Assembly: GCA_030272585.1 (NCBI GenBank)
Contig: BSYQ01000005.1
Coordinates: 6,851,501-6,915,500, forward strand
Reading direction: 5' to 3'
DNA length: 64,000 bases
Source of the DNA: Bryopsis sp. KO-2023
Taxonomy: Eukaryota > Chlorophyta > Ulvophyceae > Bryopsidales > Bryopsidaceae
Position numbers and translations under genes: made by a program. Below are positions 1 through 29,831 of the stretch, one piece after another. Position 1 is the first letter of the stretch. Every line of letters starts with the position of its first letter. The notes beneath the pieces are model-generated. The model searched no databases and had not been told where the DNA came from. It worked only from the letters and a program-made list of their open reading frames with translations.

Positions 1-1425
1 TTCCTTTTTCTTTGATAAATATCCAACAACTGAGTGCTGAAAGAATCCATACCAATGTACCCTCTGAAATTCAGTAAACCTCAAGTAAGCACCGATCTAA
101 CTGATTCAATCAATGGTCATGCAAACTTCTGTAAATTCCAAACCAACTAAATCCACAGCAAAATATGTGTCGTGAACCAGAATATTTCAGTCCACCAGAA
201 ACACCCTTGCTAAGACTGCAAATGTTCACTTCTGCATCGTCCTAAAGTAGTGAACTATGCCTAGTTCCTTAATCCACTCTGCAAGAACTGTAGAACTGAA
301 AACACATATTTACTGACCACCAAGATATTGCAAACACTATCCATGAATTCCCATCAGCTCTGAAAGAGTATTACTAACAACCTCTTCCTTTTCTCAGAAA
401 CCTTAATGAAGGTGTGTGTCTCTTTGCAACACCTACTGAAACAAATGCAATTTTGGAAAAACAAAAATGAAACGCATCGGTTGAACCGAGGCCCCCTCCC
501 CATCTGAAATGGAGCTTGTCCTCAAGCAACCATGCAACCATGCAAAACCATATCACTGTACCAGCTACAGAAAGTTGAGCTGTTCGGAGCAGCCAAAATA
601 ACCCCAAACAACTGAACAAACTACTTCAGAAAACAAGCCTGAAAAACTGAAGGCCTGAATTTGCTCTGCCAAAGTCAGAATAATCTGCTGCCCCAGATTG
701 TAACCAAACGTTCAGTTCTCAACCTTTCTGATTTGTTTTGTTCTCACACAAATATACACCAACTACGTCACCAAAGATCAAAGCTATTTCTGATTCATTG
801 ACTAGAAAAGAAATAGAAAAGAAAGAAAACACAGAAAATTTTGCAGCCCTGCAAAGTGTTCCTGCAGCTAACAGGTTCTGCACCTGCAATGTACCAACTG
901 CCCATAACAAATGTCCAGATCTCCTGCAAAAATTTTCACTGTCCCTTTTGTTTCTTTGTATGTAAAGCTGAACCTGACCATCGAATGTCATAACCTTCAG
1001 CTCCTGATCTTTGACACCATGCTATCCATGCATCAAGTTCAAACACTAGCCCATTGTGTTTACTAGTACATCGTCATGAAATAAAAGAGCTGCCAACTCA
1101 TGATACTTCATGTCTAACCACTGCAAACAAACTCAAAAAGAAATCCACCTGAAAATCTGAATCCTGCCTGAAAATCTGAGAGAACTTTTCTTTTCTTTTC
1201 TTTAACTCTGCTGATTCCCACTGATTCAAACACCAAATCAGAGATAGATCTTCAGAAACTGAAAATCCTTTGCTTTTCCTTCTGAGCTTTATATTTCTCA
1301 CAATAATATTTGAACTACCGCTGGTCCACGTATATATAGACTTCTCAAAGAAATCAGAAATATAGACTTCACCCCTGATTTTCTTTCTTGATCTCCTGAA
1401 AATCTGCAACTCAAACCAGATCTAA
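1..1425. other. Interior of E2, AT-rich, TCTGAAA/CTGCAA-rich, no gene
   Basis: No convincing coding region. The stretch is rich in short words such as CTGAAA, TCTGCA and CTGCCA on the plus strand, the same texture as 15090-19150. It ends in TCTAA, the left target duplication of E1, and resumes after the same TCTAA at 15085. Confidence 0.6.
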
Positions 1426-1845
1426 TGATAGTGAAGCTTGTGGGTGACGCAATAGTGGTCGGCTGTGTTGATTGGATTCGTGATAACTTGCTGGCTAACG
1501 CAAGTATACTTGTGGGGTTTGTTGGTTTAGACAACTCTCTAGCTAGCGCGGTTGTGAACGCTACTAGAGCACTTGGGTTGGGAAGTGATTGCGTCAGGCA
1601 AACACTTAACACACACACACACAAACACACACACAAGCGGGAACACACCAATCCCACGAATCCCGAGTTCTTACAAAATAAAGTGAACGTCAAAACAACG
1701 AGTGGGCCTCTTAAGTACCCCTAAGTGTAGTACGCTGACGCATGCCCCAAACTCTGGGTCTAATCTGTCTTACTCGCGAACCCGCATGCGTCAGCCACCC
1801 TCGGCTCTATCCCAAACTACCTCGTATAGCGCTAAAAGACTAACA
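1426..1845 (-). repeat. E1 3' LTR (copy A)
   Basis: 420 bp, minus-strand ends TGTTAG...CTATCA. It contains a CA/GT microsatellite (about 1611-1634). Where the older solo copy at 39802-40727 has a TATATAAG box, this copy reads TACTTAAG. The same LTR occurs at 8963-9381, 11979-12397, 14665-15084 and 31135-31557, and diverged at 39802-40727. Confidence 0.95.
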
Positions 1846-1870
1846 TACGCCCCCCCCGCAAAAAGTGGGC
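1846..1870 (-). promoter_or_regulatory. E1 polypurine tract
   Basis: Directly inside the 3' LTR the minus strand reads a G run (GCGGGGGGGG) followed by CGTA and the LTR start. This is where plus-strand DNA synthesis of a gypsy element is primed. The same tract precedes the LTRs at 9381 and 31135. Confidence 0.7.
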
Positions 1871-2040
1871 GCCCACGCACACCAAAACACAAAGAAAAAC
1901 AAAAACACAAAAACACAAACACAAAACTCACCCACTCCCATACCCACACCCAACTGTCTTGGACCTGTCTCTTGCTCTGACGTCTCTGACAGCTGCTGCA
2001 CGCACACACTTGGTCGACGATAACTCCTTTTCCCTCCTCC
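1871..2040 (-). other. E1 3' untranslated region between ORF3 and the polypurine tract
   Basis: Short non-coding stretch, strongly CA-rich on the plus strand (ACAAAAACACAAA words). It is repeated in E0 (about 9400-9576) and in E3 (30946-31117). Confidence 0.6.
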
Positions 2041-3979
2041 TTAACGCTGTTCCGGCGCTTGCGCTTGCTGAATAGCACGCTGCTCCTGCGCATGCGCTTG
2101 CTGCACTGCACGATACCGGACACAGGGATCAAATGCGGCAGCCACCCTCTTGGACTTAAGGAATGGCAGATCCCTTGTGATGCCGGACACCTTGAGCTGC
2201 CGCTTCACACACATGTTGCAGTGTGGCAACTTCTCGTGCTCAGCCGGGAACGGAGGGATTTCTTCGAACGTCGAGCGTGTCAGCTTCAACATATGGGCAG
2301 GTAGAGAGAATGGGGAGACGGTGGCGATGGACTTGTTGTCCACTTCCGCGACTTTTTGGACCGCCGTGACGATGCGCCCCAGCATCGAGTATGCCAACCA
2401 ATGAGCATCACACACGAGGTGATACCCACAAGGAAGGACGGAATACTTCTTCTGCGTCAGCCGCTGAGCACTTGCTTGCATTGGGCTTCTCCCGCACCAA
2501 ATGCACATGGGCAACTCGTGAAAGTGTCGGTTGCCGCGGTAATTTTGCAAGGCTCGGTCCCTGGGGTTAGTATATTGGACCTTCGGCCATTTCTCTGACG
2601 CAGTGATGGGGTTGCAAGCCTCCTCGATATCCTCCCGTGACAGGTTCACTTCGCTGGGTGCAGCATCCACTTTGTCCTGAGCAGCCGCCCTTAGTCTCCT
2701 GAGCTTAACCTTTTCTCGGAAAGCCCGAAGTGCTGCTTCTGTTGGAGCTAACTCCAACGGTGGATGGACCGCACGCTGAACCTCTGTCACCTGGCTTGGC
2801 CCTTCATCATTCCGTATTTCCCCGTCCTCCAGTTCAGAACTAGGACCTTCGAGCCTAGGAGGTGGACTGCCGAAGTCAATTTCTTCGTTAAAATCCAAGT
2901 CCAAAAGCTCCTCCTCTCTCATGTCGAATAAGTCCTCCCCCGGTGCTATTGCGGTAGCCTCATCTCCGGGAGTCTGAACTGTTGGCGCTGGTTGTGAGGG
3001 TGCTGGAGTCTTTAATGCGGCAGCCTTTAACTTGAGTAACAAGTTGGCTCTTGCTGCATCTCCAGGCATACGATCCCTCGGTGGCTCACCACCTTCATCG
3101 TCACCGTCCTCTCGCCTTCTCTTTCCGTGTGGATCTTCATCCCTACACGGCGAGCTTGGGCGTTTGTTTTTCCCTTTCCCCTTGCCCTTGCTTGAGCCTC
3201 CCGCATCATCGTCCTTGGACGGTTCCAGATCAAGTGTTGCGTTTGACAACAGAACTTGGACTTGGCGATCCAGTTCTTCGCGTACCCGTGGTGCTGGTAC
3301 CGCCGGGTTCAAACGCAGCATCTTGTCCGTTGTTTCGCTCTGCACTTGAAGTTTTTCAGAGCCGTCTCTGAGGGACTCTCCCAGCAAATCGATCTGCAGC
3401 TCTTGTTCTGCCAATTCCTTCTTAAGGTTGTTGGCTGCTGCACTCCACGCGGTTGCTACAGCTCGCTGCAGCGTTTCCTCTACCGCGGTAAATCGATCCA
3501 CCATTCCCCCGAGAGCTTGTTTACGGAGGTCATTCTCACGATGGTTAGCCATCATGTGAGATTGGAACCTTTGCTTTTTCAGCTTCATGGCTTCCAATTT
3601 TTCTTCCAAGACCTTGGTCTTGTCCTCCGCTTCTTTCTTTTCCGCCTCCGCCTTTTCCTTGGCTTTCTCCGCTGCCTCCTTCGCAGCCTCAGCTGCTTTC
3701 GTCCGGTCACTCAACTCTGAGAGCTGCCGGGTTAAGGCCTCATTGTTCTGCAGCACTTCCTCTGGGTCTAATCTGTCTTACTCGCGAACCCGCATGCGTC
3801 AGCCACCCTCGGCTCTATCCCAAACTACCTCGTATAGCGCTAAAAGACTAACGGGTTAAGGCCTCATTGTTCTGCAGCACTTCCTCTGCGGTCGACGTAA
3901 AGTGCTGCAGCTCCTCTTCTTTTTGAGCTACCTCCGCTTCCAACCTCGCAATAATTGCGGCGGGTGTATCGGCAGCCAT
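2041..3979 (-). pseudogene. ORF3 of E1: coiled-coil plus Cys/His-finger protein, broken by an LTR fragment
   Basis: This is an extra ORF downstream of pol on the same strand, where env-like genes sit in other gypsy lineages, but it has no signal peptide or membrane segment. Likely start is the MAADTP methionine (3979); an upstream in-frame Met lies at 4039. The N-terminal part is a long Ala/Glu/Lys coiled coil. A basic patch (KGKGKGKNKR) and an acidic middle follow. The C-terminal part has Cys and His spaced C-X2-C-X21-C-X2-H-X2-C-X2-H-X60-C-X2-C, like a two-zinc treble-clef or RING-type fold, then a Gln/Ala-rich tail. A 124-bp insertion (LTR end plus 35-bp duplication, 3729-3852) adds a stop and shifts the frame; the rest (571 codons from 3756) is open. 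No family recognised. DNA/RNA or Gag binding is only a guess. Confidence 0.8.
3729..3887. repeat. LTR-end fragment (about 90 bp) between 35-bp direct repeats inside ORF3
   Basis: Bases of about 3763-3852 match the last 90 bp of the family LTR (GGGTCTAATC ... AAGACTAAC). The 35 bp beginning GGGTTAAGGCCTCATTG occur on both sides (3729-3763 and 3853-3887). A 35-bp target duplication is far longer than the 5 bp made by integrase, so template switching or break repair is a better explanation than integration. Confidence 0.85.
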
Positions 3980-4429
3980 TATGTTTGTCGGAAAGAAAGA
4001 TATAAACAACGGTTTGTGCGTCTTTAGACTCTTTTTCACTCAGGAGCTCGCTCCGTTCACACAAACACTAGGGCAAAATGGTTCGAGGGCTGCGCTTATA
4101 AGGCTGGGTGACTCGTACACTTTCCTCGTTGAGTTATTGGGGTGAGACACCAACGTTTTGCTCGGTTGGAGTCTCGTCAAGACCACCTCAACACGTCACT
4201 TGATAGGGGTTTTCTCGGAACAACCACACTATCTCGAATGTGACATTGTTTGCCCGGTTTCTAAAGTACTACTGAAGCTACACTTACTGCGCCAGCCAAA
4301 TAACTTAGGCACCTAACGCATTAAAGTTAAAGAGTTGGTTTGGAAGTCGACAGAGTTTTTCTAAGGTATCCTTTTTCGCGCCCCCTTGCTATAAGGAGTT
4401 CCACCTTAGCCATCAAACACTCTGCTTCC
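3980..4429 (-). other. Spacer between pol and ORF3 in E1
   Basis: About 450 bp without an ORF. It separates two genes on the same strand and is long for a compact retroelement. It holds a TATA-like site (4096-4101) and otherwise nothing I recognise. Confidence 0.5.
4096..4101 (-). promoter_or_regulatory. Possible internal TATA box for ORF3
   Basis: The minus strand reads TTATAA in the context CAGCCTTATAAGCGCAG, about 120 bp upstream of the ORF3 start. The position would suit a separate ORF3 transcript. Inference only; splicing from the LTR transcript is an alternative. Confidence 0.3.
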
Positions 4430-7400
4430 CTATTCTCTTCCTTTCTGCAACTCTTTCCTTTCTTTCTCTTTAAATGCGCGAAGTATATCTGGTGCGTTAA
4501 CCAGATTAGCTTCAGGTTCCCAAGTAGCGTCAAGTAGATCGTATCCTTTCCACAGCACTAGGTATTCACGATTGCGTTTACCTCTAGCCCTTAGGATATT
4601 TTCGACCTCATACTCTACTTCGCTACCAATCAACTCTCCTTCTGGAGGTTGTATCTGCCTGCTGTTATCACTCGAGGTGTGATAACGCTTGAACTTAGAA
4701 ACATGAAACACTGGGTGAATGAGCCATGTTTCCGGAAGTTGAACTCTGTAAGCCACCTTTGATATTTTCTCCACAATTTCAAAGGGACCCACAAATCGAC
4801 GGCGCAGTTTGGGACTCACTTTGTTCAAAGCAGCCAACGGAATAAAACGGCTTTTTATCAGGACTTTATCCCCTTTCTCAAAAGCAATATCTTTCCTCTT
4901 CTTGTTTGCACTCACACACATTCTGTGTTGGGCTCTAGAGTAATATGCTTTTGCGGTATCCAAGTCCTGTGCCATCCGTGCTACCATAGTCTTAACTGCT
5001 TCCACTTGAAATTGCGTTGCCGTCCCACCAATGTTTGGTGTTTCTGGATGGTACCCATACATCAAATATGCAGGTGCGAACCCTGTACTCGCATTCACCG
5101 CATTGTTTGCTGCAAACTCTGCTGTAGGTAAATACTCAACCCACTTATGGGGATACCTCTCAGCATATGGCCTTAAGAAATTTTCCAGAGTACGTATGGT
5201 AACCTCACTCTGCCCATCCGTCTGAGGGTGGTAAGCTGTACTCATACGAATCTCTGTACCCAGAGCTTTAAAAAGCGTCTGCCAGAACTTGCTGGTAAAG
5301 CGAGGGTCTCTATCAGACACAATCACTTTAGGTAGGCCATGGTTGCGGTAAACATGTTCGATAAAAAGTTGGGCGTATCCTGCAGCGGTAATCTCTTTAG
5401 TACATGGGGCGAAATGCACAAACTTGGTAAGTCTATCGACAAAGACAGCTACAGCACTAAACCCATTGGATGCTGGTAGATCTGTCACCAAGTCAGTGGT
5501 AATCTGCTCCCACTTCCGCTCAGGTATTGGCAGGGGTTGAAGTAAGCCCATAGGCTTCTGTGTGTCAGCCTTTATTTGTTGGCACACAGGGCATTCGCGC
5601 ACAAATGCCTTCAACTCATTCATCCACCCCTTCCACCAATATCGCCGCGCTAGGATTTCTCCTGTTCGCGCTGGTCCTGTATGGCCTGCTGAAGGTGTCT
5701 CATGGCACTCCTTCATGATCTTATTGCGCTGGCCTTTAGGAACCACCACTTTCTCGACTAACCCTCTCTTTGGGACCGTCCAGAGTATTCCCTCTCTGAG
5801 GAAATATCCCTCAACTTCCTCGCCACTCTCAAGCTTCCGCAATATCTTCACCAAGGAGTTATCAGCTTGGAGGGCTTGTTTCCACTCGTCTTGGCTTGCT
5901 TGATGCACTTGCCAAGTGGAAATGTTCATCGCAGTTTCCACGGGCTTAGGAACACTGCGGGAGAGAGCATCTGCTAACACATTAGCCTTGCCTTTGATAT
6001 AGGAGATCTTGGGGTTGATCGAAGTCAGGTACCCCGCCTCAAGCCATCTTGCTTGGGTTCTAGAAAGGTTCCTCTGCGACAGAATATGCGTCAGAGGTTG
6101 GTGGTCAGTGAACACTGTTACTCCACCCGCACAACCTTCTAGATAATGTCTCCACTGCACCATCGCATAACATATTGCACACAACTCTTTGTCGTATGGT
6201 GCATAGTTAAGCTCGGCAGGCTTGAATCTACGTGAGAGGTAAGCTATTGGCTGCAGCCCCTCTCCGTGATCCTGTGTTAACACGGCACCGATGGCCTCAT
6301 TCGACGCATCAGTGATCACAGTGTAAGGCAGTGACGCATCTGGAAAAATAAGGACGGGAGCTTGACTTAGACGCTTTTTCAGTTCATTGAATGCGCCACG
6401 CTCAACCTGTCCCCATCTCCAGGGATGGTCTTTTTTCACTAAGTCATGGAGTGGTCCAGCAACATGTGCAAACTGGGGAATGAATTTCCTGTAGTATGAA
6501 ACCATTCCAAGGAAACTACGTACATCACTAACACTCTGTAGTTCCTTCCACTCCTTCACTGCCTTCACTTTTTGTTCCTGTGGTTTTAACCCACTTCCGC
6601 TAATGCGGTAGCCAAGATAGTCTACTGTTGCGACAGCCAGCTCACTTTTACTTGCCTTAGCAAAAAGCTGATATTCTGCTAGTCGCGCCAGGACTTTCTC
6701 TAAGTGTTCGGCATGCTGTTCCATGTTTTCAGAGAAGATGAGTATGTCATCGATAAAGACAACAACAAAATCATCTAAAAACTCTGCGAGTAGGTCTTGC
6801 ACTAGAGTTTGGAATTGCGCTGGGCAATTGGTTAGCCCAAAAGGCGCTACCAAAAACTCAAAGTGACCGTATCTCGTGCGGAACGCTGTTTTATCTGTAT
6901 CAGATGGCCTTACTGGAAATTGCCAATAGCCTGATCGCAGATCTAACTTCGAGAACACTTTGGCTTTGAACACTCTATCCATCAATTCTTCTGGCAGGGG
7001 TAAAGGATACCGGTTTTTCACCGTCACCTTATTGATCCACCTGTAATCCACACACATCCTTAAGCCTCCATCCTTTTTCGGTACAAATAGGATTGGCGCG
7101 CCCCAAGGGGACTCGGATGGTTTGATTTTCTTCTGTTCCAGAAGGTAGTCCACTTGTGCTTTCACTTCATCCAGCTCTGCTGGTGAAAGCTTGTATATTG
7201 GACGATGGATAGGTGTTGGATCCTCCAGGTCTATCTTAAACTCATGACCTTTTCTCTTCGGAGGAATCCCTGGGGGTAAATCACGAGGGAACACACCACG
7301 GTGTGTTTCTACCACCTTTTTAATTTCGGCAGGGGTGTCTGAACGAATAAGTTTGCCAATCTCATCCTCAGTGTTGAATGGCTGTGTTCGCTCTATTGCG

Positions 7401-8170
7401 TCAGGCAATTCATGTTGGCCTAAAGCTTTCTCTTCAGACTCTTGCACTACAACCATGAATGCTGTCTCTGTTTTGAGATGACGCATCATTCGTTTAGCTG
7501 AACACTCAGTCACTGGCACTTCTTGCAGTATCGACTGTACTTTTCGTTCAGGTTCAATACTCTCTTGGGTTGGATGACGCAACGGAAGATGAAACACTTG
7601 GCTGTTTTTGCAAACTGAAATCTCATTCTGCTGAAAATCTATGCGGGGGTTTTCTTTCTGCAACCAAGGCATGCCCAATATTAGGTCATAACCAAGGTGT
7701 GGGAACAGATCCGCTTTCATTTTGCACTTCAGCCCTCCTATCTTTACTCGGAGGTTGTTACAGCTGCCAGCCAGTTCTTTAATATCTCCGTTTGCCAACA
7801 TTGCTCTCTTTGAGCTTGGTGTAATCGACAACCCGAGATCACGCGCTACCTTATCATTGATATAGTTTGCGGTACTTCCACAATCAATGAATGCATAAAG
7901 GTCCGTGGTCTTGATCCGTGCTTTTACTTCGTACCCTCTCACAGGCACTTCTTGAATTTTTAACAGAGGGCATGTGTCACCCTTGGTTGATGAAGTTGAT
8001 CGAACTTCTGACACATTAACTCGCTCTGTGGTAGACCGTTGGGTTGTTTCTGACCCACTATCGTCTACGTCTGCAGGCAGGGACTCCTGTAGACTACTCT
8101 GCGACTCCAATGAGCCCACAGATTCACTAACAGAGGGAAGAGATGCAGATGACGCATGAGGCGCGTCCAT
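4430..8170 (-). CDS. pol: Ty3/gypsy Pol polyprotein (PR-RT-RH-IN-chromodomain)
   Basis: The frame is open for 1246 codons from the Met at 8170 and continues open upstream to the gag end, so translation probably enters by -1 frameshift near 8440; the upstream part carries an Arg/Lys-rich stretch. Residue numbers count from Met 8170. Protease: D96-C-G-S-T, with Cys where Ser or Thr is usual, and LILGMPWL near 163-170. Reverse transcriptase: VPKKDGGLRMCVDYR near 363-377 and FIDD at 472-475. RNase H: D621, E662, D689 and D734. Integrase: zinc finger H823/H830/C860/C863 and catalytic D893, D953, E989. C-terminus: a chromodomain-like block with YLVLWKGYDLLDATWEPE, known in chromoviruses to direct integration to modified chromatin. 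No premature stop is seen. Confidence 0.95.
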   Translation of the reverse strand: MDAPHASSASLPSVSESVGSLESQSSLQESLPADVDDSGSETTQRSTTERVNVSEVRSTSSTKGDTCPLLKIQEVPVRGYEVKARIKTTDLYAFIDCGSTANYINDKVARDLGLSITPSSKRAMLANGDIKELAGSCNNLRVKIGGLKCKMKADLFPHLGYDLILGMPWLQKENPRIDFQQNEISVCKNSQVFHLPLRHPTQESIEPERKVQSILQEVPVTECSAKRMMRHLKTETAFMVVVQESEEKALGQHELPDAIERTQPFNTEDEIGKLIRSDTPAEIKKVVETHRGVFPRDLPPGIPPKRKGHEFKIDLEDPTPIHRPIYKLSPAELDEVKAQVDYLLEQKKIKPSESPWGAPILFVPKKDGGLRMCVDYRWINKVTVKNRYPLPLPEELMDRVFKAKVFSKLDLRSGYWQFPVRPSDTDKTAFRTRYGHFEFLVAPFGLTNCPAQFQTLVQDLLAEFLDDFVVVFIDDILIFSENMEQHAEHLEKVLARLAEYQLFAKASKSELAVATVDYLGYRISGSGLKPQEQKVKAVKEWKELQSVSDVRSFLGMVSYYRKFIPQFAHVAGPLHDLVKKDHPWRWGQVERGAFNELKKRLSQAPVLIFPDASLPYTVITDASNEAIGAVLTQDHGEGLQPIAYLSRRFKPAELNYAPYDKELCAICYAMVQWRHYLEGCAGGVTVFTDHQPLTHILSQRNLSRTQARWLEAGYLTSINPKISYIKGKANVLADALSRSVPKPVETAMNISTWQVHQASQDEWKQALQADNSLVKILRKLESGEEVEGYFLREGILWTVPKRGLVEKVVVPKGQRNKIMKECHETPSAGHTGPARTGEILARRYWWKGWMNELKAFVRECPVCQQIKADTQKPMGLLQPLPIPERKWEQITTDLVTDLPASNGFSAVAVFVDRLTKFVHFAPCTKEITAAGYAQLFIEHVYRNHGLPKVIVSDRDPRFTSKFWQTLFKALGTEIRMSTAYHPQTDGQSEVTIRTLENFLRPYAERYPHKWVEYLPTAEFAANNAVNASTGFAPAYLMYGYHPETPNIGGTATQFQVEAVKTMVARMAQDLDTAKAYYSRAQHRMCVSANKKRKDIAFEKGDKVLIKSRFIPLAALNKVSPKLRRRFVGPFEIVEKISKVAYRVQLPETWLIHPVFHVSKFKRYHTSSDNSRQIQPPEGELIGSEVEYEVENILRARGKRNREYLVLWKGYDLLDATWEPEANLVNAPDILRAFKEKERKELQKGRE

Positions 8171-8427
8171 CTCATCCGGTGTGCTTTCCTTCTGTTCATT
8201 TTTCCAATCGCAGTTGTCATGTGCCGATTGGGTAGATGTGGAGAGTGTCTCTGTTCTCTCTTCACGCGGTGTACTAGTCCGCTCCTCAGGTTTTCCGCTG
8301 TGAGTACTTTTAACCTTTTTCGAGGCACCTACTTTTGATCTATGCTTCCTACGCCGCCTACGAACTCTGTTTCGCTTACGACGTTTGCGTCGGCCAGGCT
8401 CAGACGAAGCAGTTTCCTGCCTGGCGG

Positions 8428-8962
8428 TCAGTTTAACATTTTTTTTACATCGGGGAGGTTTTTCACCTCCTCCAATCTAGGACATTGCCTCACAGGGTGA
8501 CCCCTCTTTCCACAAAGATAACAATTATATCCCCCTCCCCCCTGGGGGTTCTGTCTTCCCTGATTGGCTTGTCCCCTTCCACGGTTACCACCACCGCGTC
8601 CACGTCCACCACCACCACGTCCTCCTCCTCGTCCTTGTTGCTGTTGCTGCTGCTGTTGCACTCCTGCGGCAGCTTGTGGTGGTGCTTGGGCTGGTGGTGT
8701 GGGGTTCTGCTGCTGCTGACCCTGATTCTGGCCTTTCTTCTTTCGTCCACCACGCCAGACTCCTTTCTTTTTCTGATTGGTCTGCCCTCCTTGGCCTTGT
8801 GTTCCAACTCCAAGGGCTTCCAATCGTTCGGCGGATATGATGGCGGCCTCGACATCTCGAGGTACCGTTGCTGCGACTAACTTCTGAACTTCACTTTTAA
8901 GTCCATCCACGAAGAGCAAATACTGGTGATCCTCTTCGAGGTCTGGAATCCTCAAGACTAAC
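8428..8962 (-). CDS. gag: E1 gag, 3' part (capsid C-terminus and zinc knuckle)
   Basis: This is the C-terminal part of Gag, continuing the gag frame that breaks off at 12403; removing E0 plus one TSD (3440 bp) restores phase. It starts in the capsid region (IPDLEEDHQYLLFVDGLK), passes a Gln-rich and Gly/Arg-rich segment and ends in a CCHC knuckle, CYLCGKRGHPVRQC, which binds RNA in Gag. The stop lies just after the slippery A run. Note that (GTTGCTGCT)-type codons give a Gln tract near 8636-8660. Confidence 0.9.
8439..8446 (-). promoter_or_regulatory. -1 ribosomal frameshift site between gag and pol
   Basis: The minus strand has eight A residues in the phase GTA AAA AAA ATG, so the gag frame presents the classical A-AAA-AAA slippery heptamer. 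Slipping back one base enters the frame that runs open to the pol Met at 8170. The gag stop (TGA) lies only a few codons downstream. No downstream pseudoknot was evaluated. Confidence 0.7.
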
Positions 8963-9381
8963 TGATAGTGAAGCTTGTGGGTGACGCAATAGTGGTCGGC
9001 TGTGTTGGTTGGATTCGTGATAACTTGCTGGCTAACGCAAGTATACTTGTGGGGTTTGTTGATTTGGACAACTCTCTAGCTAGCGCGGTTGTGAACGCTA
9101 CTAGAGCACTTGGTTGGAGAAGTGATTGCGTCAGGCAAACACTTAGACACACACACACAAACACACACACAAGCGGGAACACACCAATCCCACGAATCCC
9201 GAGTTCTTACAAAATAAAGTGAATGTCAAAACAACGAGTGGGCCTCTTAAGTACCCCTAAGTGTAGTACGCTGACGCATGCCCCAAACTCTGGGTCTAAT
9301 CTGTCTTACTCGCGAACCCGCATGCGTCAGCCACCCTCGGCTCTATCCCAAACTACCTCGTATAGCGCTAAAAGACTAACA
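8963..9381 (-). repeat. E0 3' LTR (copy B)
   Basis: 419 bp, same family as the E1 LTR. It shares small differences with copy C but not with copies A and D (for example GTTGGTTGG and TTGATTTGG), so B and C are a pair. Confidence 0.95.
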
Positions 9382-9576
9382 TACGCCCCCCCCGCAAAAA
9401 GTGGGCGCCCACGCACACCAAAACACAAAGAAAAACAAAAACACAAAAACACAAACACAAAACTCACCCACTCCCATACCCACACCCAACTGTCTTGGAC
9501 CTGTCTCTTGCTCTGACGTCTCTGACAGCGGCTGCACGCACACACTTGGTCGACGATAACTCCTTTTCCCTCCTCC

Positions 9577-11833: not shown

Positions 11834-11964
11834 GGTCTCTCAGCCACTATTTGGGAGTACTCAACAACCACGGTTGGAGTTTCTCTCTACCAAACAAACA
11901 AACAAAAACGTTTGTTGCGCCACGTTCACAAGTTTCGATCTCAAGAACTTAAAGTTCTTGCCTA

Positions 11965-11976
11965 GCTCCGAAACCA
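11965..11976 (-). promoter_or_regulatory. E0 primer-binding site (initiator tRNA-Met)
   Basis: The minus strand reads TGGTTTCGGAGC two bases inside the 5' LTR. It is complementary to the 3' end, with CCA added, of the initiator tRNA-Met encoded at 60572-60643. Confidence 0.9.
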
Positions 11977-11978
11977 AT

Positions 11979-19185: not shown

Positions 19186-20330
19186 TTGCATCTCGCGTCT
19201 GCGCTCAACTTACGCTCAGCCTGCGCTCAACCTGCGCTCAACCTGAGTCAGTTAAGCGATGCCTGCATCAGTCGCACTCACTGCGTACACTGCAACTCTT
19301 CCTGGTCGCACCAACTTAATGTGTGCTGCGCAATTCTCACTCTCGCATACAACCTGCCACGTTCTGTGCAAGTCCATCAGATCCTGCACCTTGTGCCGAC
19401 CTTGCACAGAGCTGCGCGTTCCTGCGTCAACTGCGCGATCCCTGCATCAGCTGTTCCTTCAATCGACACGCAGTCCCAACATCGTCTGCGAACTTCCATC
19501 AAGAGCTGCACAGTTCCATAAACACTGTGCAGTCCCTGCATCCTGCATAGGCTGCCCAGCCTGCATCTGCGCGAAATGTCCCATCGACATTGCAATCCGC
19601 TGCACGCAGCGTAACTCTGTCGTCTGCAGTGCAATTTCGCATGTGCAGCGCTTTCCTGTGGCTGCTGCGCGTCACATCATCCACTTACGCAGTGCCAACA
19701 TTCGCTGCGCACTTCCAGCAAAACCTGCGCACGTTCTGTCTGCGACGCAATCCTGCACGCGGTACATTTCCATATTCGCTGCGCAACCTTGTATCAACAG
19801 CGTAATTCCACATCTGCGGTACAACTCTGCATCTGCGGCGCAATCCTGGATCTGCTGCGCATTCCTGGATCTGCTGCGCATTCCTGGATCTGCTGCGCAG
19901 TTCTACACCTGCGACGCAATCCTCCAAATGCTGCGCCACCCAACGTCTCCTGCGACGCTGCATAGTCGTGCTGCGCTTGACAATGCTGCGCGCCTGTGTG
20001 TAAGCTGCGCTTCTACATACTCCAATGTATTGCCCTGCGCTCTACACATCACTTCTGCGAAATCTGTCTGCCGCAGTGTTCTTACACACACTGCGCCCAT
20101 TCTACTCCTGACGCTGATTCAGCGACTTTCCTTCACACAGCACACTCGAACACTCCAATAGATAACTGCAAATCTGCAAAGCACTGGCGTTTGTCTGCCT
20201 TGCAAACCTCTGCTTTGCACTGTGCTGTGTGCCTGCTAGTGTCCTGCGCCTCTGCGCCTTCTCACTGCGCGCCTGCCGCGCATACTGCTGCCTCTGCAGC
20301 CTGCCAGACTCGTTTGTGATCTTGTCACAA
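19186..20330. repeat. CTGCGC-rich zone of E2
   Basis: The words CTGCGC, CTGCGA and CTGCAT occur every 15-30 bases on the plus strand, with a local triplicate of TGGATCTGCTGCGCATTCC near 19848-19905. The long plus-strand frame here (19259-20161) is Cys/Ala-rich junk made by the repeated word and I do not call it a gene. Confidence 0.7.
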
Positions 20331-21400
20331 GCCTGCTCCGAAACCACTGTAACGATTCTGCCCCTGCAGATCGCTTTTTCTGCTTCAACATACTGAAGAC
20401 TGCGACCCTGCCGGTCTGCCAGTCTGAACTGCCGTTCTATTGAACGACCATCAAGGGAGACACTTGAACCTAGCAAGGTTCAAGGGGAGATCAGGTTCCA
20501 AACTAAGGTTACAAGAATGTCCAAACCCCAACAACTTATACCGTTTCTTCCAACCCTGATCCAAACTGATCCTAAGCCATAACATCAGTCTGCATCAGTG
20601 TTGCAGACCATCAAACTACCAAGTTCCTTTCAGTCCCCTTTCATGACATGCAGCCTCAGACACCTTGCACGGTACTGCGGTCCTGAGTCTGCCACCTAAG
20701 ACCTTCTAGAACCTTGTGCCTGCCAGCTCTGCAGCCCACGTTCTGCAACGCTGCCAGCACCTGTCTGCCATCAGCAACCCTGTCAGCCCGACTACTCTGC
20801 CACTTCGTCAGTCTGCCAATCTGCTGACTACCAGTCCTTTAGTCTGCAGGTCTGAAGGACCTGAACCATTCCTGCTTCTGCAGAATCATAGCAGTCAACC
20901 TGCAGCTCTAACCTGTCAGCCCAATCACTGCCAGTCTGCAAGCCTGCAGGTCTGCCTGAATCTCCTTTGATTCTGCCGAATCCTTACAGAAATAAAGAAT
21001 AAGTAGTTTGATTGGCCGCTAAAAAGAGAAACAGGGCCATCCACTGAACAAAACACGAAGAAAAATAGAAAAATAGAAAACAAACCTCACAATCATGCAA
21101 ACAAGATGATTTTCAAACGGCATAACAGATCCCATACTCTGTGAAATCCAGAAACCTTGTGTCTCTTGCTTGGACGGATGCCCGCTTCTTCGTCTGCTTG
21201 CTTCATCAGGGCATTTAGTAATAGCCCGCTCAAGCCTCTCCTAACTCGTGGTTCTATGGTGCGGATGTGGATTCCGCCCACGAGTACCGCCAAGGAGAAG
21301 GTTAAACATGGCATAAGCATTGCTTGCAATGTCTTCTTGCTCGTGATTCAGCACACGAACATGAAGAAATGCCCGCTATGCTTTATCCGTTCAAGACTCC
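20331..21400. other. Interior of E2, TCTGCC-rich, no gene
   Basis: Non-coding; TCTGCC/CTGCCA words dominate 20600-20990. The following 400 bp to 21400 shows nothing I recognise. Confidence 0.4.
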
Positions 21401-24400
21401 AAGTCCGCGCAAGCTTAGATTATAACTTCCGCTCGCTACCTCGCTTCGCAGTTTCACTTAGTCGGAAACCATAAGCTTCGCTCTTGTCAGACACTCTCCT
21501 GTAGTCCGCTGCTGTTGATATCCGCTGCGGCTTTTCATCCATTGCAGTTTTGGTCAATTCCAATGCCGCTGCAATTCCTTGGTCAGATTTCCACTTCCGT
21601 TTTCTTCATTTACAACTGATATTTTTCCTTCCTTCCACGGTACATCTTCGTTCTTCGCTCGGTAAAACGCTTGGTCGGATATCACTTAGGCACAACACTC
21701 CATTCGTTACGTTTATCCGCTAGTATATAAGCGGTCATCAGTGTAGAGATTTGTCCGAGGCCAAATCCTATGCGGATACCCCCAGGATCTCACTAAGCTG
21801 GTTGACTGCTAGAGTCCCCACTTAGCAGCGAGAGCCAGTACACCGATGAGAAGTCCGGCTGATCTCTCAGCTTCTTCTCTCTTCAACGTCCCTACGAATC
21901 TCCCATGAGTTTCTCCGCCGCAACACCTCAGAACAATAGCCGCTCGAGCATATCCATAACATGTATGGCCACTGCTATAGAGATTTGTCTGAGGCCTACA
22001 TTTCCCCCAGGATCTCATCGAATCACAATCCGCTGGTTGGCTACTAGAGTCCCTACGTAGCAGCGAGAGCCAGTATATGCAGCAGAGCGTCCGGCCATTC
22101 CCTGACCTCTTCGTCCTTTCTGCTCCAGTGCTATTGTCTTCAGTGGTCCGCTCCAATGTTTTTCCGAGTTTGGGTCTTCAAATAATGTCCGCTCCTTCTT
22201 CGGCGGTTTGAATTAATCCGCCCTGGTGGTCCAATTTAATCCACCCTGGCGATTCTTTGTTGTCTTCGGCCAATCCTCTGATGCTTTGGTAAACCCCCAT
22301 AAGTCTCCAATACATCCTCAGCTTCAGAACATCCATAATCCGCTCGTGACTGAGTCAATCGTTGCATAGCTACCCTCACGCCTCCAAGTCGGTTGTTGAT
22401 CAGAACTTCCGCTTAGTGTTGTCCGCTAGGTCGCTCCAACGTTCGCTTTGACGCCCTTTCATTCGTTCCTAATTGTACGTGCGACCGTGATCCTCAAATT
22501 CCGCCGTGGCTGATATTTTCCGCCTTGACTGATTTTTTCCCGCTTTGGCTCTTTGAGATCATCAATTCCGCCTTCATATTCCGCTCACTGGAATTGTGTC
22601 GCTTCTTCAGGCACAATATCCGCTTCCACAGGCACAATTCCGCTTCTGCAGCACAATTTCCGCTTCTGCAGGCACGATATCCGCCTTAAGTACTGGATTT
22701 TGTCCGCCCAAATGCTTCTTGTCTTCGTATTCGCTAGCAATGTGATTCCGCCAAGATTAACCCGCCAGTCATATCCCAACAGGCTTAATCCGCTGGTCAC
22801 AATCCGCCAGTCGAATACCCTTCAAGTTCTCTTCAGAACTTCGCTTCTTCCGCCGTAGTCGAAGTTGCTTTTTTTTCCTGACAAGTGCATTATCCGCTTC
22901 AGTTGCTGTTTCCGCCAACTGATGTACAATTAATCCGCCCGAACGAATTCAGTCACTCAGCTGTATGTGTCTTCCGTCTGCACGGGTCATAGTTCAGGAT
23001 TTATTTCGGTTTCTTTCTTTGCTCGGCTTCTGTGATAATCCGCCCTTCGGTCAGTTCCACGTCCGCTCGAGTTTCCTTCGTTGGAGAACAGTAATTTTTG
23101 AATGTCCGCACATTCCTTCTTTTGTTTTCCATTGCATGAGCCGCCACCTCCGTCGTCTTTGGATCCTTCTCACGGCATCGCTTTGTATGTAAACTTCCCA
23201 AAGTTTCACGGTTGCGTCTATAGGTAGTAAATCACCAACTGAGTATTTCCGCTTACTCCATCCCTATAGAATCGCAATGTGTGCTCATTTTTCGAGCCCG
23301 CTATCTCTTCGATACTGTCTAGATCCAAACACGAGTCGATTCTTTTCACCGCAGATAGTCCGCTCTCATCAATGCTCGGTTAGTCCCCAAGTTCCGCCAC
23401 TTCAAACTTGTTGACTTCCACGCGAAATACACTCCATATACCTTCCGCCACAGAGATTACCTTTTAACCCCCGCCTTCCAAAGAACCTTGGAAATAGTCT
23501 GCCAGCAACAAGACGGTCTTGTCCGCACTATCCATTTAGATACCACTAAATAGAAAGTTCCGCAAGAAAGAGTTAAAGGAATGTCAGTCCGTCGACTTCC
23601 GCTCCTCAGACAAATAACTCGGGTACCACTTGGCAGTGTTCACCTTCCCCGATAGTTTTTGTCTCTCTTTTACCTTGCACGTCCAAAGTTAAATCGCCTT
23701 TGGATAATCCCCTTGGTCCTCCTTCTGCGCGCTTGTGGCTTGGCAAATCCGCTCTTGATCCTATTTTCAGCGAGGTTTAGTTTGCTGGAAGTCAATGCAC
23801 GCCTTCCCGAGAAGAAAGTATCCAGGTAACCCCCGTTGGGTTACCCCTTGTTCGAACAGCAGTTCCGCCTGAGGGGAACTGTGCATCCCTGCTCGCCCCT
23901 TGACAAGCGACTTCCCGACGTAACTAATCCGCTTAGCGGGTTAGCACATCTTGATTTTGGCTCCGGCTTGAGCCTCATCAAGTGTCGGAAGTCCTCCTCC
24001 TTTTTCTTCACGCTTGACTTGCCTCTGGAGGAAGACCTTCGTCTTCTCTTCAGTACCCTGAACGATAATCTCCAGCTCAACCGACTAGCGGGCCAGTGTT
24101 CGTACCACGGCTGTCCAGAACACTGGTTGAGGAGCTTGCCCCCGTTTTCCTGCTGCAAGACATCCCCGTCAGAGTTCCCGCTTTGTCGCCCAAACAGTCC
24201 CCTCTCAACTGTTGGTACTTCGCCCGAAGTCTTGAGCTCTTCATATCCTCTTCTGTCCGCTGGTTTCTGCACAATATGTGGCACTTCCGCCCTTGGTCTT
24301 GTATTGAACGAAAGCCTTGTAATCTGCCTTCCAAATCAGCATAGTCGTTCCTACTTGTAGTTTCACGCAAGTTCACCTTCAAAATCCGGCTCTAGCGGTC

Positions 24401-27400
24401 GTATTTAACCCGCTCTGGCTGTCTGATTTCATCCGCCTTTGGAATTTGTTTTGAAGTCCGCCCTTGAGCCCTTCATAGTCCGCCTGATGAAGCTTTAATC
24501 CGCCCGAAGGCTAAACTTTTAGTCCGCCTTCCAGGTGTTTAATCCGCCTAAGGGCTTAGTCCTCTTTAGTCCGCCCTCCAGGTCCGCTTCTCAGGTCCGC
24601 CTTCCTCAAGGTTGCGGTCTTGGACTACTTCAAATTATCGTGTTCCTCCTTGTCCAAGTTGAACTTTGCTGCTATAAGGAATCCTTCGGACGTTTAATGT
24701 CGAGTAAAGGCACACACCTTAACACAGGCGTTCACAACAACCAGGAATAGACCGTTCTCCCTATGGACAAGGGTGCCGACGGATTACCCGGTTCTGCACA
24801 TTTCACTGAATGGGCTGTCAATGCACAATACTCGAATTAAATTCTTCCTCCACACATATGTGCAGTCCGCTGACAGAGCTTGAAGCATCTTCTTTTTGTC
24901 GAACTTATTAACATCTTCAACAATCCGCCACACTCAGATGACTCTAAGGAGTTCTGGTGTGCGTTCCAACGCTTCGTTCTTCGCTCCAAGGTACTTGGTT
25001 TCCCTCTTAGTCCGCCTTTTGAAGAGGTTCACCACTTCTCTCTCGACTGGTATATTTCTCCACTTCAACAAATCTGCCCGCTCACTCGCCTTTAAGTGTA
25101 GCATCCCAGGAAACTCTGTTTTCCGCCCTGACCACCTGTCAGTGGATGCTCCGCGGTCGCTAGTTTGGACCTCTAGCGCGATTTGTTTGTTTGTCAACCT
25201 TCAACCAGATTGCTTCGCCTGGTTCAAGCTCTCCTAGCTTGGGTCTCTCAGTATACACCATAACAGTCTTGCCAGACTGGTTGAAACTACCGCACCTCAA
25301 TAGTCTCCCAAGCCTTTTTGTCCACGTGGTGCTCATTGCTTGGTATGGCGTTTTAGGCTGCTCTGGTTGCTCCACAAAGTTAGGCCTCGGCATGGATTGC
25401 GCCATCCCTGGTCTTTGGGATTTGTCCGGCCTTCTGGCATCCATCCATCGTGCACACCTGGATTTCCGCCTCTTTGTTGATTATGCTCCACGCATAACCG
25501 CCGCTTCCACGCTCAATCTTTATCTGCCTCCTCTCCAGCCAATCCGCGTTCAGCTATGCTTTTCGCCATTCCAGGAAGTCCCCATCCCCTGTTTCCGCTT
25601 GACAAGTAGCTAGCCAAATCTCTTTTAAAATATCCGCTCAGGAAATCCGCCCCAACTCTCTTTGAGGTGGGCGTTATCAGACCCGCTTCCTTGCGATTGT
25701 CCGATTGATTCGCTGCTTCCTTTGTCCGCGTTTTGGGTTTTTCTGGTAATGGTCTCTTATTTCTCAAGCATTTCTTATCTGCCCAGGAAACTATATATCA
25801 CACAAAGTGTAGTGGCACTTAAATTCCGCCACTTGCCCTCCATTGATCAGGCACTAGCCGCCTGTCTTGTAGTCTAATTCATCCTTCCAGGCTTGTTACC
25901 AAGACATAGTATTTCCGCTCTTGGTGACCACTATTCGCTGGAATCCGCTCTTGAGCAATGCTCAGTCAAGATTTATCCGCTTTAAGCTTCAAATAAGAGC
26001 TGTATTCCGCTTCTTTGATCGTGGTTCTTCCACCCTCTCAATGTTGGACAACTTCTTCAGTATACGGAAGCAAAGCACTCCTTGTCCCGACCACAAAGCT
26101 TCAAAACTTCCATTTACTCGCTTCTCGGTGTCTAGGATAGTTTGGAACCTTATAGTCCGCTTTGGAGTCAGCTTTGGAGTCCATTCTCCCCATCATCATT
26201 GCTGGATCCATCCATTCCATGCCTGCTTCAGTATTGTCCGGTTTAGGTCGAATCTGCTGGCGCCATAGGCTGCTCAAGCTAGTAATCCGCCTATACACTT
26301 TAGTGTTCCGCCATCTGAAGCAATATCCGCTCATGTCGTGGATATCTGTCGTTAGCTTCTTTCCAATTCCAATTCCAGTCAATCTTTCGCTTGCTGGTCC
26401 TTCAAGCTTTGGATTAAGCTCCTGGAAATCTCTATTTAGTGGCGCCCTTCTTAGGTCGGCCTACTTGTTCAAAATTTCCGCTTTAATCCCCAACTGACAG
26501 TAGTATTCCGCCTCCAGCAACTCTTGAAGTCTTGGTAATGATGCAATTCCGCTCCTTCATCCAAATGTGTCTTCTGTGGTAGGACTCATCTCCCTGGCAC
26601 TAAATAATCCGCTTCTCTGACAAGTTTCCTCCACTCCGACATGCTCTTATGCATCTTTTTCCGCATGCTTTGTCATTTGCAGGATCTTCCATAATTTTGT
26701 CCGCTCGTCAGCAGTAGAATCCATTCTTCAGCGCTCAACTCTCCCAGACACATAGCTTTTTCCGCTGATCCTTGAGTTTGCGCTTTTCCTTTAAATTATT
26801 TTGTCAGTAGCACTCCTTATCCGTTTGGTAGCTTTTTCCGCTCTTCAGGTTCGGTTAACTCAATGCCTTACACTGGCTAATACGAGTATAATCCGCCCTT
26901 ACTTCCAATCCACTTGATAATCCGCTTGTTCTCTTGCTTCTGACAAAAATCCGCTGACTCTTTGCTCGCGCTCCATGCTGTTCAAGCTTTGACAGAACAC
27001 GCTTGTCGGTGATCATATTTGAATGCTCCATATGATATATATATAAGCGCCAATATATGAAAACTTGGCTTCTACCCGCTCCAGGTTGGGTCTTGTATGG
27101 AGGTAGATGACTATAGACAATCCGCCATTTTATGGCCTTCGCCACTTGACTTTGCAAGCACCAATTTCCGCTTCTGCGGCCACAGAGTGTGATTAATGTC
27201 CGCCACAACATTAGCTTGGAATCTTCATCCATTTCCGCTTCAGCTTATGGCATTTACTCTTCATGAGCAGTTGAACTTTCCGCTCAAGCAATCACATATA
27301 ATCCCAGTAGCAGCTTCACCATCCGCTCTGGCTTTGTTGATTTCCGCTTGGCAGTTCTACTGTCTCCATATAAGCACATTTACTCCGCTCTTTGAATGCC

Positions 27401-29250
27401 TGTATTGTCTGTCACTTAGTCCGCTTGCACCTTTGCTGCATTGGAATTTCCGCTCAAGACACACACCCTCATCGCCTTTGCATTCTGCCTCAGCAGTCCG
27501 CGCTGACAGTCCGCCTTTGCCTTAGCTTTTAGTCCGCTTAGTGCAATAGTCTGACGGCTGTAATTTGGTCGATGAATACTCCTTAGACTTTTGGGTGTTG
27601 TTCTTGGCGCTAGACTTCCATGTATGGCTAGTATTGTGAGCCATATCCGCTCAATGGTTTGTGGTAGTGTCCGCCCTGACCAGACGTATGATTCCGCTTA
27701 GTCTTTCAGCCAATAGTCCTTGGACCTGATCATCCAGGTTGACTCTTTTATTTCCGCTCTGGCTCAGGTTCTTGACGGTCTAATTTAATCCGCCTGACGG
27801 TATAATTTAGTCCGCCTTGACGACCTCATTTAGTCCGCCTCTGCTATTCCGCTGTTGAAAAGAGAATGAATTTTTCCGCTCGTGATCCTCGGTTGGTTCC
27901 ATGGTAACTCGATTAGTTCCAAAGAATACCACCATACACTTCCACGGCATTAACCTCTAATTCTTCTTCTTCACTCAGCCCGGAATATCACAATCCGCTA
28001 CCACATCCATTAGACCTCAAAGTTTACCCACAAGATATCCGCTCAGAGCTTCAACAATGCTTCACTTGCCCGTTCATAACATTAAGTCACAAACATCCAA
28101 TGTGGCACTGCTATTGCGTGCTCCTTAATCAGATTCAAGCTCTCGAGAATGCTCGATAGCTCGCGGCAAGCTACATTTAATCCGCTCGTCTTATATCCGC
28201 TTGTGTGAGGTCTTGGCCTATTGAAAGTCCATTCCAAACGAACTATACTCTCCAACAGCTCCTTCTGCAACAAATCATTCTGCATACTTAATAGCTTAGC
28301 AGATGATTCCTTCTCTTCCGCCCTGCGTACTTAGCAGCTTTGCAGGCGGTTTAATCTCCCTCTTGGGTGCGTTGAACTCCACTATCGCTTGAACTCGGTT
28401 TGTAGGTAACTGGCAGGCCGCTCTTCCGCTCTCTATTAGCCTGGCGACTTCTTTTCTCTCTTTGTCTTCTTGTCGCTAGTTGTGCTTACATTCTTCCGCT
28501 ATGGTCCAACTCTTGGCAGTATAAAGTCTTAAGATCTTCGTCTTCTTCTCTTCGCACTGAAAATCCGCTCTTTTGCGGTTGCTAATCCGCTGGGTGATCA
28601 GCCCAGGCGGTTTGTGCGTTGATACAGACTCGTTTCTGCTCCTGCCGTGTAACACAACCTCCAGCTTCTGTTTCATGACCGCCTCCAACTCTTGATGTAT
28701 TAAAATCCGCCTCCAACGCGATCGTGAAACTACCGTAGTTCTAGCCTCGATAGTCCGCTGATATTCCGTGTTGTGTGTCCGCTGGTGCTCCTCCAAGCTC
28801 AACCGCTTCAGCTCACAACAACACCGCCTATTCTTCCTTCTCGTTGGAATATCATTGTCCGCCCAGCAGAGTGTAAGGGCAGCGGGTCACTGGGCCACTT
28901 TGCCCGCCTTCTGCCTCTGTCCGCTCTCACTCTCCGCCGTTTCTGTTTAACCGCTTTGGTGGACTTCGTTTTTCCGGCTCTGGCGAACTACCTCGGAGTT
29001 CTGTCCGCTCCCTTTTTCCGCGACCTATTTTGTCCGCTGCGCCATTTTGTCCGCTGTCAGACTCTGGCCTTTTCCATTCGCTGTCTGACTTTGGCTCGTC
29101 CGCTGCACTTCCGGCTCGCCATTTCCGCTCTGCGGCTTCCGATGTAACACTTCCGCTCCGCGGATTCCGCTCTGCCAAATTCCGCTGTAACATAGTGTGA
29201 CATGACTGTATGTCCGACAACGGAATTTCTGGCAGCTGTCACAGGCGCAG
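21400..29250. repeat. TCCGC zone of E2: one-strand dispersed pentamer over about 8 kb
   Basis: The word TCCGC (usually TCCGCC or TCCGCT) recurs at irregular 10-60 base intervals on the plus strand; by eye 9 copies in 24421-24600 and 11 in 27181-27540, where chance would give well under one. The complement GCGGA is rare on the plus strand. The intervening sequence is not repeated, so this is not an ordinary tandem repeat. No frame longer than about 175 codons is found and none looks like a protein. Confidence 0.8.
21744..22110. repeat. Imperfect direct duplication, offset about 235 bp
   Basis: The block TAGAGATTTGTCCGAGG ... CCCCCAGGATCTCA ... CTAGAGTCCCCAC ... AGCAGCGAGAGCCAGTA (from about 21744) returns from about 21978 with substitutions and small indels. 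Confidence 0.75.
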
Positions 29251-29816
29251 TCGTCGACTTCTTGCGCAGCAACTATCCGCCACCACGCGTTGGCCGTCCG
29301 TGTGTCAAACTTCCCTCACAAACGTTGACTCGAACTTGGTTCGTCCATAGGTGGTTCGTTTATAGGAGATCTTTGCAGATCTGCTGTAGATCTTCTTCCA
29401 GAAATTTACAGGTTCTGTCGAAACTCTGTCTTAGGGAAACTTAAGCTCTCAGCTTTCCTTTCCACTGCTTTTCGACCTCTTTCGACCTGTTTCGAACTCT
29501 TTTCGACCACTGTGCTGTCCTTTAGGTTAACAGTCACAAGGTCACCTGCAGATTTCTGTAGATCTGACCCTTAGATCTCTTCCTGCGACGGGTTCCTTTT
29601 CGTTTCCTTCTCCTCGCCTCTACCCCGACCTTTCCAGTGCTTACGAACTCGTCGCTCGCACTCGCGCTCCTTCGATCCCACCTAGCACCACCCCCTTTGG
29701 TGCCATCACTCCTTGCCCATCCCCTCTTGATAGGCACTTAACCTAGCCACTGACTTTTCGTCGTCAGGTGGCTCCTCCTACAGGGTCGTCCGTCCTCGTC
29801 GTTTAGGGACGCCCAA
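29251..29816 (-). other. Probable 5' leader of E2
   Basis: Lies between the PBS and the TCCGC zone. It has four TTTCGACC-type words (29470-29510) and several AGATCT palindromes (29365-29580). A 67-codon basic frame (29534-29737) is present but resembles no Gag. Role in dimerisation or packaging is only a possibility. Confidence 0.3.
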
Positions 29817-29828
29817 GCTCCGAAACCA
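29817..29828 (-). promoter_or_regulatory. E2 primer-binding site (initiator tRNA-Met)
   Basis: Minus strand TGGTTTCGGAGC, three bases inside the LTR. This is the key evidence that E2 replicates as an LTR element even though it has no pol. Confidence 0.88.
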
Positions 29829-29831
29829 AAA

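Follow-up and report, generated by a model that had tools for sequence, protein, structure and literature searches.

Precedents exist for non-autonomous long terminal repeat (LTR) elements, for dispersed packaging signals and for arrays of VANC motifs. The first of these include large retrotransposon derivatives (LARDs), Dasheng and BARE2, and barley LARDs carry LTRs of about 4 kb. How gene-less LTR elements are recognized by their helpers is poorly understood. Here we analyzed a stretch of 64,000 nucleotides (the window; contig C5 6851501-6915500) from the ulvophyte green alga Bryopsis sp. KO-2023, whose genome comprises 91 Mb in 28 contigs with TTTAGGG telomeres. The window holds two unrelated, full-sized, gene-less LTR retrotransposons, E2 and E3, nested one in the other. 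In its RNA sense the interior of E2 is filled with the word GCGGA, and that of E3 with GCAG. Judged from sequence, what is new here is a candidate coding element for each parasite, E6 for E2 and E5 for E3, with the same ends and the same word. Over-use of the word in a coding element with these ends suggests a tag that carries the gene-less element along. In the accessible literature searched, no gene-less LTR element is described as saturated with an exact word that matches its helper.

E2 and E3 resemble LARDs and other non-autonomous LTR elements. Both have identical LTRs with TG..CA ends, a target-site duplication (TSD), a primer-binding site and a polypurine tract (PPT), both lack gag-pol, and the non-coding interior is kept among copies, E3 retaining two short E5-like remnants; as for those elements, mobilization by other elements is presumed. 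The E2 interior is about 9 kb, but the LTRs are short (197 bp in E2, 641 bp in E3), and we therefore call the two elements LARD-like rather than LARDs. The accessible descriptions of LARD-type elements that were searched mention no exact word that is dispersed and matched to a helper. Unlike VANDALs, which are DNA transposons, E2 and E3 are LTR elements. In the parts of the sources available, VANC motifs are short, dense, family-specific, non-coding and in the same orientation, and differ between related families (PMC5735166, PMC10398659); E2 likewise has dense, same-orientation short motifs in non-coding DNA. One VANC protein acts on an unrelated element, as a helper's reader may act on a parasite, but DNA binding and an origin of the motifs by tandem repeats are reported there (PMC5735166), whereas the words here have no tandem origin and also occur in the coding sequence of the helpers.

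The packaging signals of RNA viruses, according to the portion of PMC6281560 available, are also present in many copies over the genomic RNA, and the coat protein reads the viral ones. They are mostly stem-loops with a variable motif, whereas the E2 word is exact, shows no structural preference in predicted folds, is also carried by a gene-less parasite, and is a candidate binding signal. The repeated motifs of Sireviruses are described in the accessible part of PMC2829016 as high-copy and family-specific in an LTR retrotransposon, with a CGG core, but they are palindromic, lie in LTRs and upstream of env, and reach at most 32 copies. The E2 word is non-palindromic, lies on one strand, and has 133 copies, with none in the LTR. 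Finally, E5, E6 and a third coding element, E1, resemble Ty3/Gypsy chromoviruses in gag, reverse transcriptase (RT), RNase H, integrase, chromodomain and initiator-Met primer site (RT, RNase H, integrase and chromodomain were all found in E1 and E6), and differ in a third open reading frame (ORF) after pol and, for E5 and E6, in coding sequence biased to the family word.

Nested gene-less elements

Three LTR elements are stacked on the minus strand, E1 within E3 and E3 within E2 (negative coordinates denote bases upstream of the window). E2, recognized from its LTRs, TSD and genome-wide copies, occupies 20989..30028 except for its 3' end, which was split off by E3 and lies upstream of the window (-2554..-2281, minus strand). 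Its two LTRs (-2554..-2358 and 29832-30028) are 197 bp long and identical, with the TSD CTACC on both sides; the 5' LTR (29832..30028, minus) begins and ends with TG...CA. The primer-binding site TGGTTTCGGAGC (29817..29828, minus) complements the 3' end of initiator tRNA-Met, the gene for which lies in the window (60572..60643, plus strand). The same site is found, identical, in E1, E2, E3, E5 and E6. Thus the non-coding E2 with its 197-bp LTR and initiator-Met primer site, as originally described, was recovered. E2 itself interrupts a plus-strand E1-type copy.

The E3 LTRs (-2280..-1640 and 20348-20988) are 641 bp long, identical and flanked by GAAAT. Based on LTRs, TSD and counts of GCAG and GCAGA, the 5' LTR and 5' interior of E3 span 15090..20988 (minus), with the primer-binding site TGGTTTCGGAGC at 20335..20346 (minus). 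From sequence structure, the middle part of E3 lies at 1..1425 (minus), bordered on the right by E1 and extending upstream to -2280; a solo E1-type LTR (-499..-62), identified by repeat comparison, is inside it. E1, a Ty3/Gypsy chromovirus at 1426..15084 (minus), has identical 420-bp LTRs, the TSD TCTAA, gag, pol and a third ORF, and the Pfam domains RVT_1, RT_RNaseH, rve and Chromo. Once the insertions are subtracted, E2 measures about 9.3 kb and E3 about 9.2 kb. The original prediction of one giant E2 with a 16-kb field therefore resolves into the interiors of two nested elements of about 9 kb, each with its own word (GCGGA in E2; GCAG(A) and GCGCAG in E3).

E2 belongs to a repeated family. 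There are at least 40 full-length matches to its LTR genome-wide (40 of 93 candidates scored). Among the 18 neighboring pairs that these form, 13 are spaced 8.0-9.2 kb and five 13.5-32 kb, the 32-kb pair being that of the window; five of the 40 are unpaired. The E2 stretch 24351-24950 has 41 genome matches at 83-100% identity (40 of 40 candidates scored), and most aligned pieces of the copies are 93-100% identical. At 30 of these 41 loci, including that of the window, we counted 32-55 GCGGA per ~3.6 kb and at most one reverse complement (0-1); additional LTR sequence is present in the two loci with the fewest words (32 and 35). Exposure of the interior as an unrelated insertion by other copies had been named as grounds for refuting the original prediction, and it proved true of the E3 part and false of E2. 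One tandem array with the order LTR-interior-LTR-interior-LTR occurs at C11:3724572-3743055 with a period of 9144 bp.

Private words and candidate coding partners

The E2 field (21273..29280, minus) holds 133 GCGGA in the RNA sense, read as TCCGC on the plus strand, against a mean of 14.1 and a maximum of 25 in 200 dinucleotide shuffles; its reverse complement occurs 3 times (3.6 expected). Recounting gave the same nine copies of TCCGC at 24421-24600 and eleven at 27181-27540 that had been reported, and the reported one-strand bias was reproduced: 500-bp bins starting at 15001-29001 contain 216 TCYGC and 15 GCRGA, against 47 and 64 in bins over 30001-64000. The bias is real in E2 but is not confined to E2 and E3, as the coding element E1, on the same strand, has 68 TCYGC and 8 GCRGA.

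Spacing between words is uneven, as had been noted, and near random (median 41 nt, coefficient of variation 0.94). The words fall 45/45/43 in the three reading frames, without preference. The base before the word is A or G in 122 of the 133 copies, and the base after it is G in five. The LTR and the ~550 nt that follow it contain none. Two pairs of flanks reach 24 of 40 identical bases (mean 0.23, maximum 2 in 200 random sets), and on average the flanks match at slightly more bases than random ones do (10.92 vs 10.44 of 40, sd 0.06), as the preferred neighbors, A or G before and not G after, would lead one to expect. Hence the view that the words sit in unrelated sequence stands insofar as the flanks are not mutual copies, with a qualification for the raised mean; flanks, frames and stops in all frames likewise uphold the view that the field is neither satellite nor coding sequence. 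Words with one mismatch sum to 170 (~190 expected), and as they are not in excess, the word is exact. Small local repeats occur at 22499-22684, 24389-24605 and 27771-27840. Decay of tandem repeats as the origin of the word was rejected in view of the flanks, the exactness and the small extent of these arrays, and leftovers of CpG depletion were rejected because the mononucleotide expectation is only 13.2. Imitation of the D-arm of the initiator tRNA was dropped, since that tRNA carries GCGCAG but has GTGGA in place of GCGGA.

E3 has no GCGGA excess. Its own words are GCAG(A) and GCGCAG: the 5' interior (15090-20347) contains 45 GCAGA against 16.4 in shuffles (maximum 28) and 125 GCAG against 56.9. 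The 5' LTR (20348..20988, minus) contains 16 GCAGA against 1.9, and the 5' leader (19190..20347, minus) 23 GCGCAG where 3.9 are expected. In the middle part (1-1425), where dominance of TCTGC had been claimed, there is some excess of GCAGA (7 vs 2.7), but it is modest and belongs to E3. The remnants of the E5 gag-pol region, found by DNA identity to E5, lie within 15962..16858 (minus), at 84-86% identity in 16610-16858 and 76-78% in 15962-16143. Inside E3 there is also a 54-bp tandem repeat with six copies (16221-16552).

E6, the coding partner of E2, is a chromovirus that we studied as locus L074 and as a copy in the upstream flank (-14622..-4825, 97-99% identity). The flank copy is at least 9.8 kb long with a pol frame open for 1375 codons, and the E6 gag has at least 40 genome matches (40 of 84 candidates scored). 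The pol of L074 is split over two frames, separated by a stretch in which part of the L074 3' junction recurs. PolB matches the Pfam domains RT_RNaseH, rve and Chromo, whereas the RT part in polA was read from the translation. E2 and E6 (L074) have a PPT/LTR junction in common, a G-run followed by AGTAGT/TGATACG. The sequence AGTAGTTGATACG is absent from E1, and the E1 junction differs from that of E2 and E6. Apart from the 3' end, the E2 body has no notable DNA similarity to E6 (E >= 0.04); thus, the word is shared without shared sequence.

E5 (-34895..-25910, 9.0 kb) has identical 464-bp LTRs, the TSD AGTGG, a gag with a CCHC-like knuckle identified by eye, a pol frame of 1387 codons read from its translation only, and a third ORF. 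It has the PPT/3'-LTR junction CTAGATGGGGAGGAA/TGTAAGGATTC in common with E3, and the first 500 nt of its interior contain nine GCGCAG, a counterpart of the GCGCAG cluster beside the E3 5' LTR. The C-terminal end of the E6 Gag also bears a CCHC-like knuckle by eye.

Word counts in the helper ORFs were compared with two synonymous codon shuffles, a looser one and a stricter one that keeps the dinucleotides at codon boundaries. In gag and pol of the E6 flank copy, tested without the repetitive third ORF, GCGGA occurs 48 times, compared with 19.7 in the looser shuffle (rank 1 of 978 pentamers) and 25.6 in the stricter (rank 1 of 928). L074 has 73 copies (36.2 and 48.7 expected, rank 1 both times). 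In its gag, polA, polB and ORF3, GCGGA ranks 1, 1, 4 and 1 in the looser shuffle and 1, 3, 5 and 4 in the stricter. The copies fall in different codon frames, and GCAGA is not enriched in the E6 ORFs. A view of the L074 words as mere coding repeats was overturned by whole-locus counts and the codon shuffles, which show the word in each ORF. In E5, GCAG occurs 141 times (93.0 looser, 118.0 stricter) and ranks first of 256 tetramers both times. The control ranks of GCGGA are 85-103 in E1 and 164-440 in the pol2 and gag2 frames of the window, and those of GCAG are 37-105 and 66-70. Beyond codon choice, neither word is clearly in excess in the E1 ORFs, and E1 was discarded as the helper of E2 on this ground and for its different PPT junction.

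The third ORFs after pol (E1 2041-3756, E5 L009:6501-7508, E6 L074:1100-2848) match no Pfam family above cut-off, and that of E1 does not convincingly resemble the other two. By eye all three are rich in Lys, Glu and Ala and coiled-coil-like, and those of E1 and E5 have a Cys/His cluster around LPCG.H.VC.

Constraint on the E2 word and readings of a proposed tag

Variants shared by at least two E2 copies should have arisen in source elements, while singletons are mostly post-insertion. We removed L012, L017 and L044 (the window's own copy), the tandem duplicates L015, L016 and L046, blastn pieces that were shorter than 300 nt or began upstream of position 165, and columns that held fewer than 8 letters or lay ahead of position 230, which left 86 words of the E2 field. 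Their 430 columns contain 14 shared variants, compared with 29.7 in trinucleotide-matched columns (resampling p 0.0003; 14 vs 29.4 before removal of the tandem duplicates), and 25 singletons where 20.4 are expected. The neighboring bases at -1 and +5 vary freely, with 11 and 12 shared variants per 86 columns. Depletion of shared but not singleton variants indicates a constraint on the five bases that acted before insertion, and the halving of shared variants is a sign of selection during E2 propagation.

Two helper/parasite pairs, E6/E2 and E5/E3, thus have common ends, a common primer site and a dispersed word private to the pair, while their interiors are otherwise mostly unrelated. Two matched pairs in one genome make a recognition tag the simplest explanation, and we consider a helper-matched tag of some kind to be quite probable. 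That the word is read on the RNA by the helper's Gag, as a dispersed packaging signal, we put at about an even chance. The latter is favored by the one-strand use in E2, the excess at synonymous sites of helper genes, and the similar lengths (E2 9.3, E3 9.2 and E5 9.0 kb; E6 flank copy at least 9.8 kb), and it builds on the nesting, the non-coding interior, the common ends and the reduced shared variation of the word. By this route the helper machinery would recognize its own RNA by the word, a CCHC-like knuckle of Gag binding many copies along the genomic RNA and packaging it. The parasite RNA would be recognized by imitation and mobilized in trans; it would need no genes, provided that its ends match, its words are numerous enough and its length is like that of a genome. 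The CCHC knuckles of LIN28 read NGNNG, according to the available part of PMC11011352; GCGG and GCAG fit this pattern, and by analogy it may extend to Gag knuckles. The RNA sequences relevant to packaging of Ty1 and Ty3 "have not been precisely defined", in the words of the portion of PMC4974528 available, which also reports Ty3 packaging as dependent on untranslated regions or POL.

Several observations count against a tag read by Gag. The E2 words are no more unpaired in predicted folds than words of the same composition (0.407 vs 0.410), the Pfam zinc-knuckle match of the L074 gag is below cut-off, and nt 429-4979 of yeast Ty3 are reported in the accessible text of PMC4974528 to be dispensable when proteins are supplied in trans. 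In the helpers the reverse complement of each word is over-represented as well: TCCGC has 26 copies against 7.8 in the E6 copy and reaches z 3.4-4.0 in the codon shuffles, and CTGC has 82 against 43.1 in E5, which a tag on the RNA strand alone does not predict. Controls are not wholly clean: the whole of E1 has 26 GCGGA (12.7 expected) and 42 GCAGA (28.8), GCAGA reaches z 2.2-2.9 in E1 pol, and CGGA tops the tetramers of pol2 and gag2 in the stricter shuffle (z 2.3). GCAG is the less special word, with 66 copies against 24.9 in the control stretch 49500-56300, and in the stricter shuffle of E5 CTGCA comes first among pentamers and GCAGA third (z 2.8). Plain retention of GCGGA among E2 copies is unremarkable (1719/1781, 71st of 232 CpG pentamers), and in a first pass the share of variable columns was 0.235 inside the word and 0.237 outside (28 of 30 loci, identity >0.88). 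Of 20 control words, 3, with few sites, reach ratios <=0.5 (mean 1.03), the E2 copies are not independent, which weakens the variant test, and the same test in E3 gave 3 vs 4.2 with too little divergence among copies. Separately, E6 gave no sign that its forward words form hairpins with the reverse ones (median distance 55.5 vs 57.8 at random). In the control stretch 49500-56300 the GCAG excess over Markov expectation (plus strand) takes the form of CAG runs opposite two long minus-strand ORFs.

The main rival is a tag at the DNA level, in which a helper protein, for example that of the third ORF, would bind the word in element DNA and remove silencing marks as VANC does, so that a parasite bearing the same sites is opened together with its helper. 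We regard it as unlikely, though ahead of the other alternatives. VANC21 sites (YAGTATTAY) are short, dense, family-specific, in the same orientation and mainly non-coding, and VANC6 also acts on an unrelated element bearing its motif, as reported in the part of PMC5735166 available; the third ORFs without a Pfam family, the reverse complements enriched in the helpers and the CpG within GCGGA fit as well. However, VANC sites spread as tandem repeats (available text of PMC5735166) where E2 shows small local arrays only. They are also mainly non-coding, yet our word is over-used in gag and pol of the helpers; the E2 words are almost entirely forward, and the third ORF of E1 is not convincingly similar to those of E5 and E6. 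A host protein might instead read the word on the RNA of helper and parasite alike, in export, protection from splicing or early polyadenylation, or stability. Long unspliced RNAs may need such help, and the strand bias and the excess in coding sequence suit any RNA reader. A host factor would be expected to favor one word in all families, but the two families use different words, and E1 and the pol2 and gag2 frames have no comparable excess; we consider this slightly less likely still than DNA binding.

A functionless trace left by mutation, one of the possibilities first raised, or by degenerate tandem duplication could draw on the few short local repeats and the slightly raised mean flank similarity. 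Against it stand the low mononucleotide expectation, the exact word without a halo of one-mismatch forms, flanks that are not mutual copies, shared but not singleton variants depleted in the word, and the same word in several frames of unrelated helper ORFs, so that we hold it to be highly improbable. Decayed or spliced protein-coding sequence deserves practically no credence. E2 has a few open frames (for example 23836-24360) and weak period-3 power (0.5-4.0, up to 4.1 in parts of E2 and E3), but gag and pol of E1 reach 20-21, E2 has stops in all six frames and words in all phases, variation is alike across phases, and indels are not in threes. The 174-aa frame has no Pfam match, and E2 has no protein similarity to the helper proteins. 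Pfam matches of two E3 frames were rejected as spurious: NTS (16023-16508) covers no domain stretch, and HypD (19259-20161) is below cut-off. Overall, the evidence favors one option of the original prediction, that the words are an array of sites bound on RNA or DNA, for packaging, silencing or a host factor; our preferred form of it is a helper-matched word read on RNA by Gag.

Whether this extends further is more tentative. We give a little under even odds to the general proposal that retrotransposon clades use private words (GCGGA, GCAG; core GC-R-G) dozens to more than 100 times per RNA, also at synonymous sites of the helpers, and that the ~8-kb interiors of satellites are saturated with them at helper-like length. 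If true, it would be a sequence code for retrotransposon self-recognition and a route of origin for genome-sized non-coding parasites. The two pairs offer a concrete candidate of four or five bases each, and each pair serves, along with further elements, as a control for the other. If the reading is right, binding specificity, packaging and parasite origin would be testable by simple binding and reporter assays, and the word excess in coding sequence could serve in other genomes to match orphan non-autonomous elements to helpers.

Other features of the window

A gap of 2 bp separates a solo LTR of a family related to that of E2 (81-82%; 41794..42005, minus) from the 3' end of a tRNA-Lys gene, an arrangement (41794-42080) that suggests tRNA-gene-targeted insertion. 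In all, 25 tRNA genes are predicted between 33829 and 63512, one with a stop anticodon. Their density peaks at 57-63.5 kb, close to satellites and to telomere-like TTTAGGG repeats (56440-56677); the end of the window is ~133 kb from the end of contig C5. A 467-bp direct repeat (39871-40337 and 54018-54484) has two copies that are 99.8% identical and 14 kb apart.

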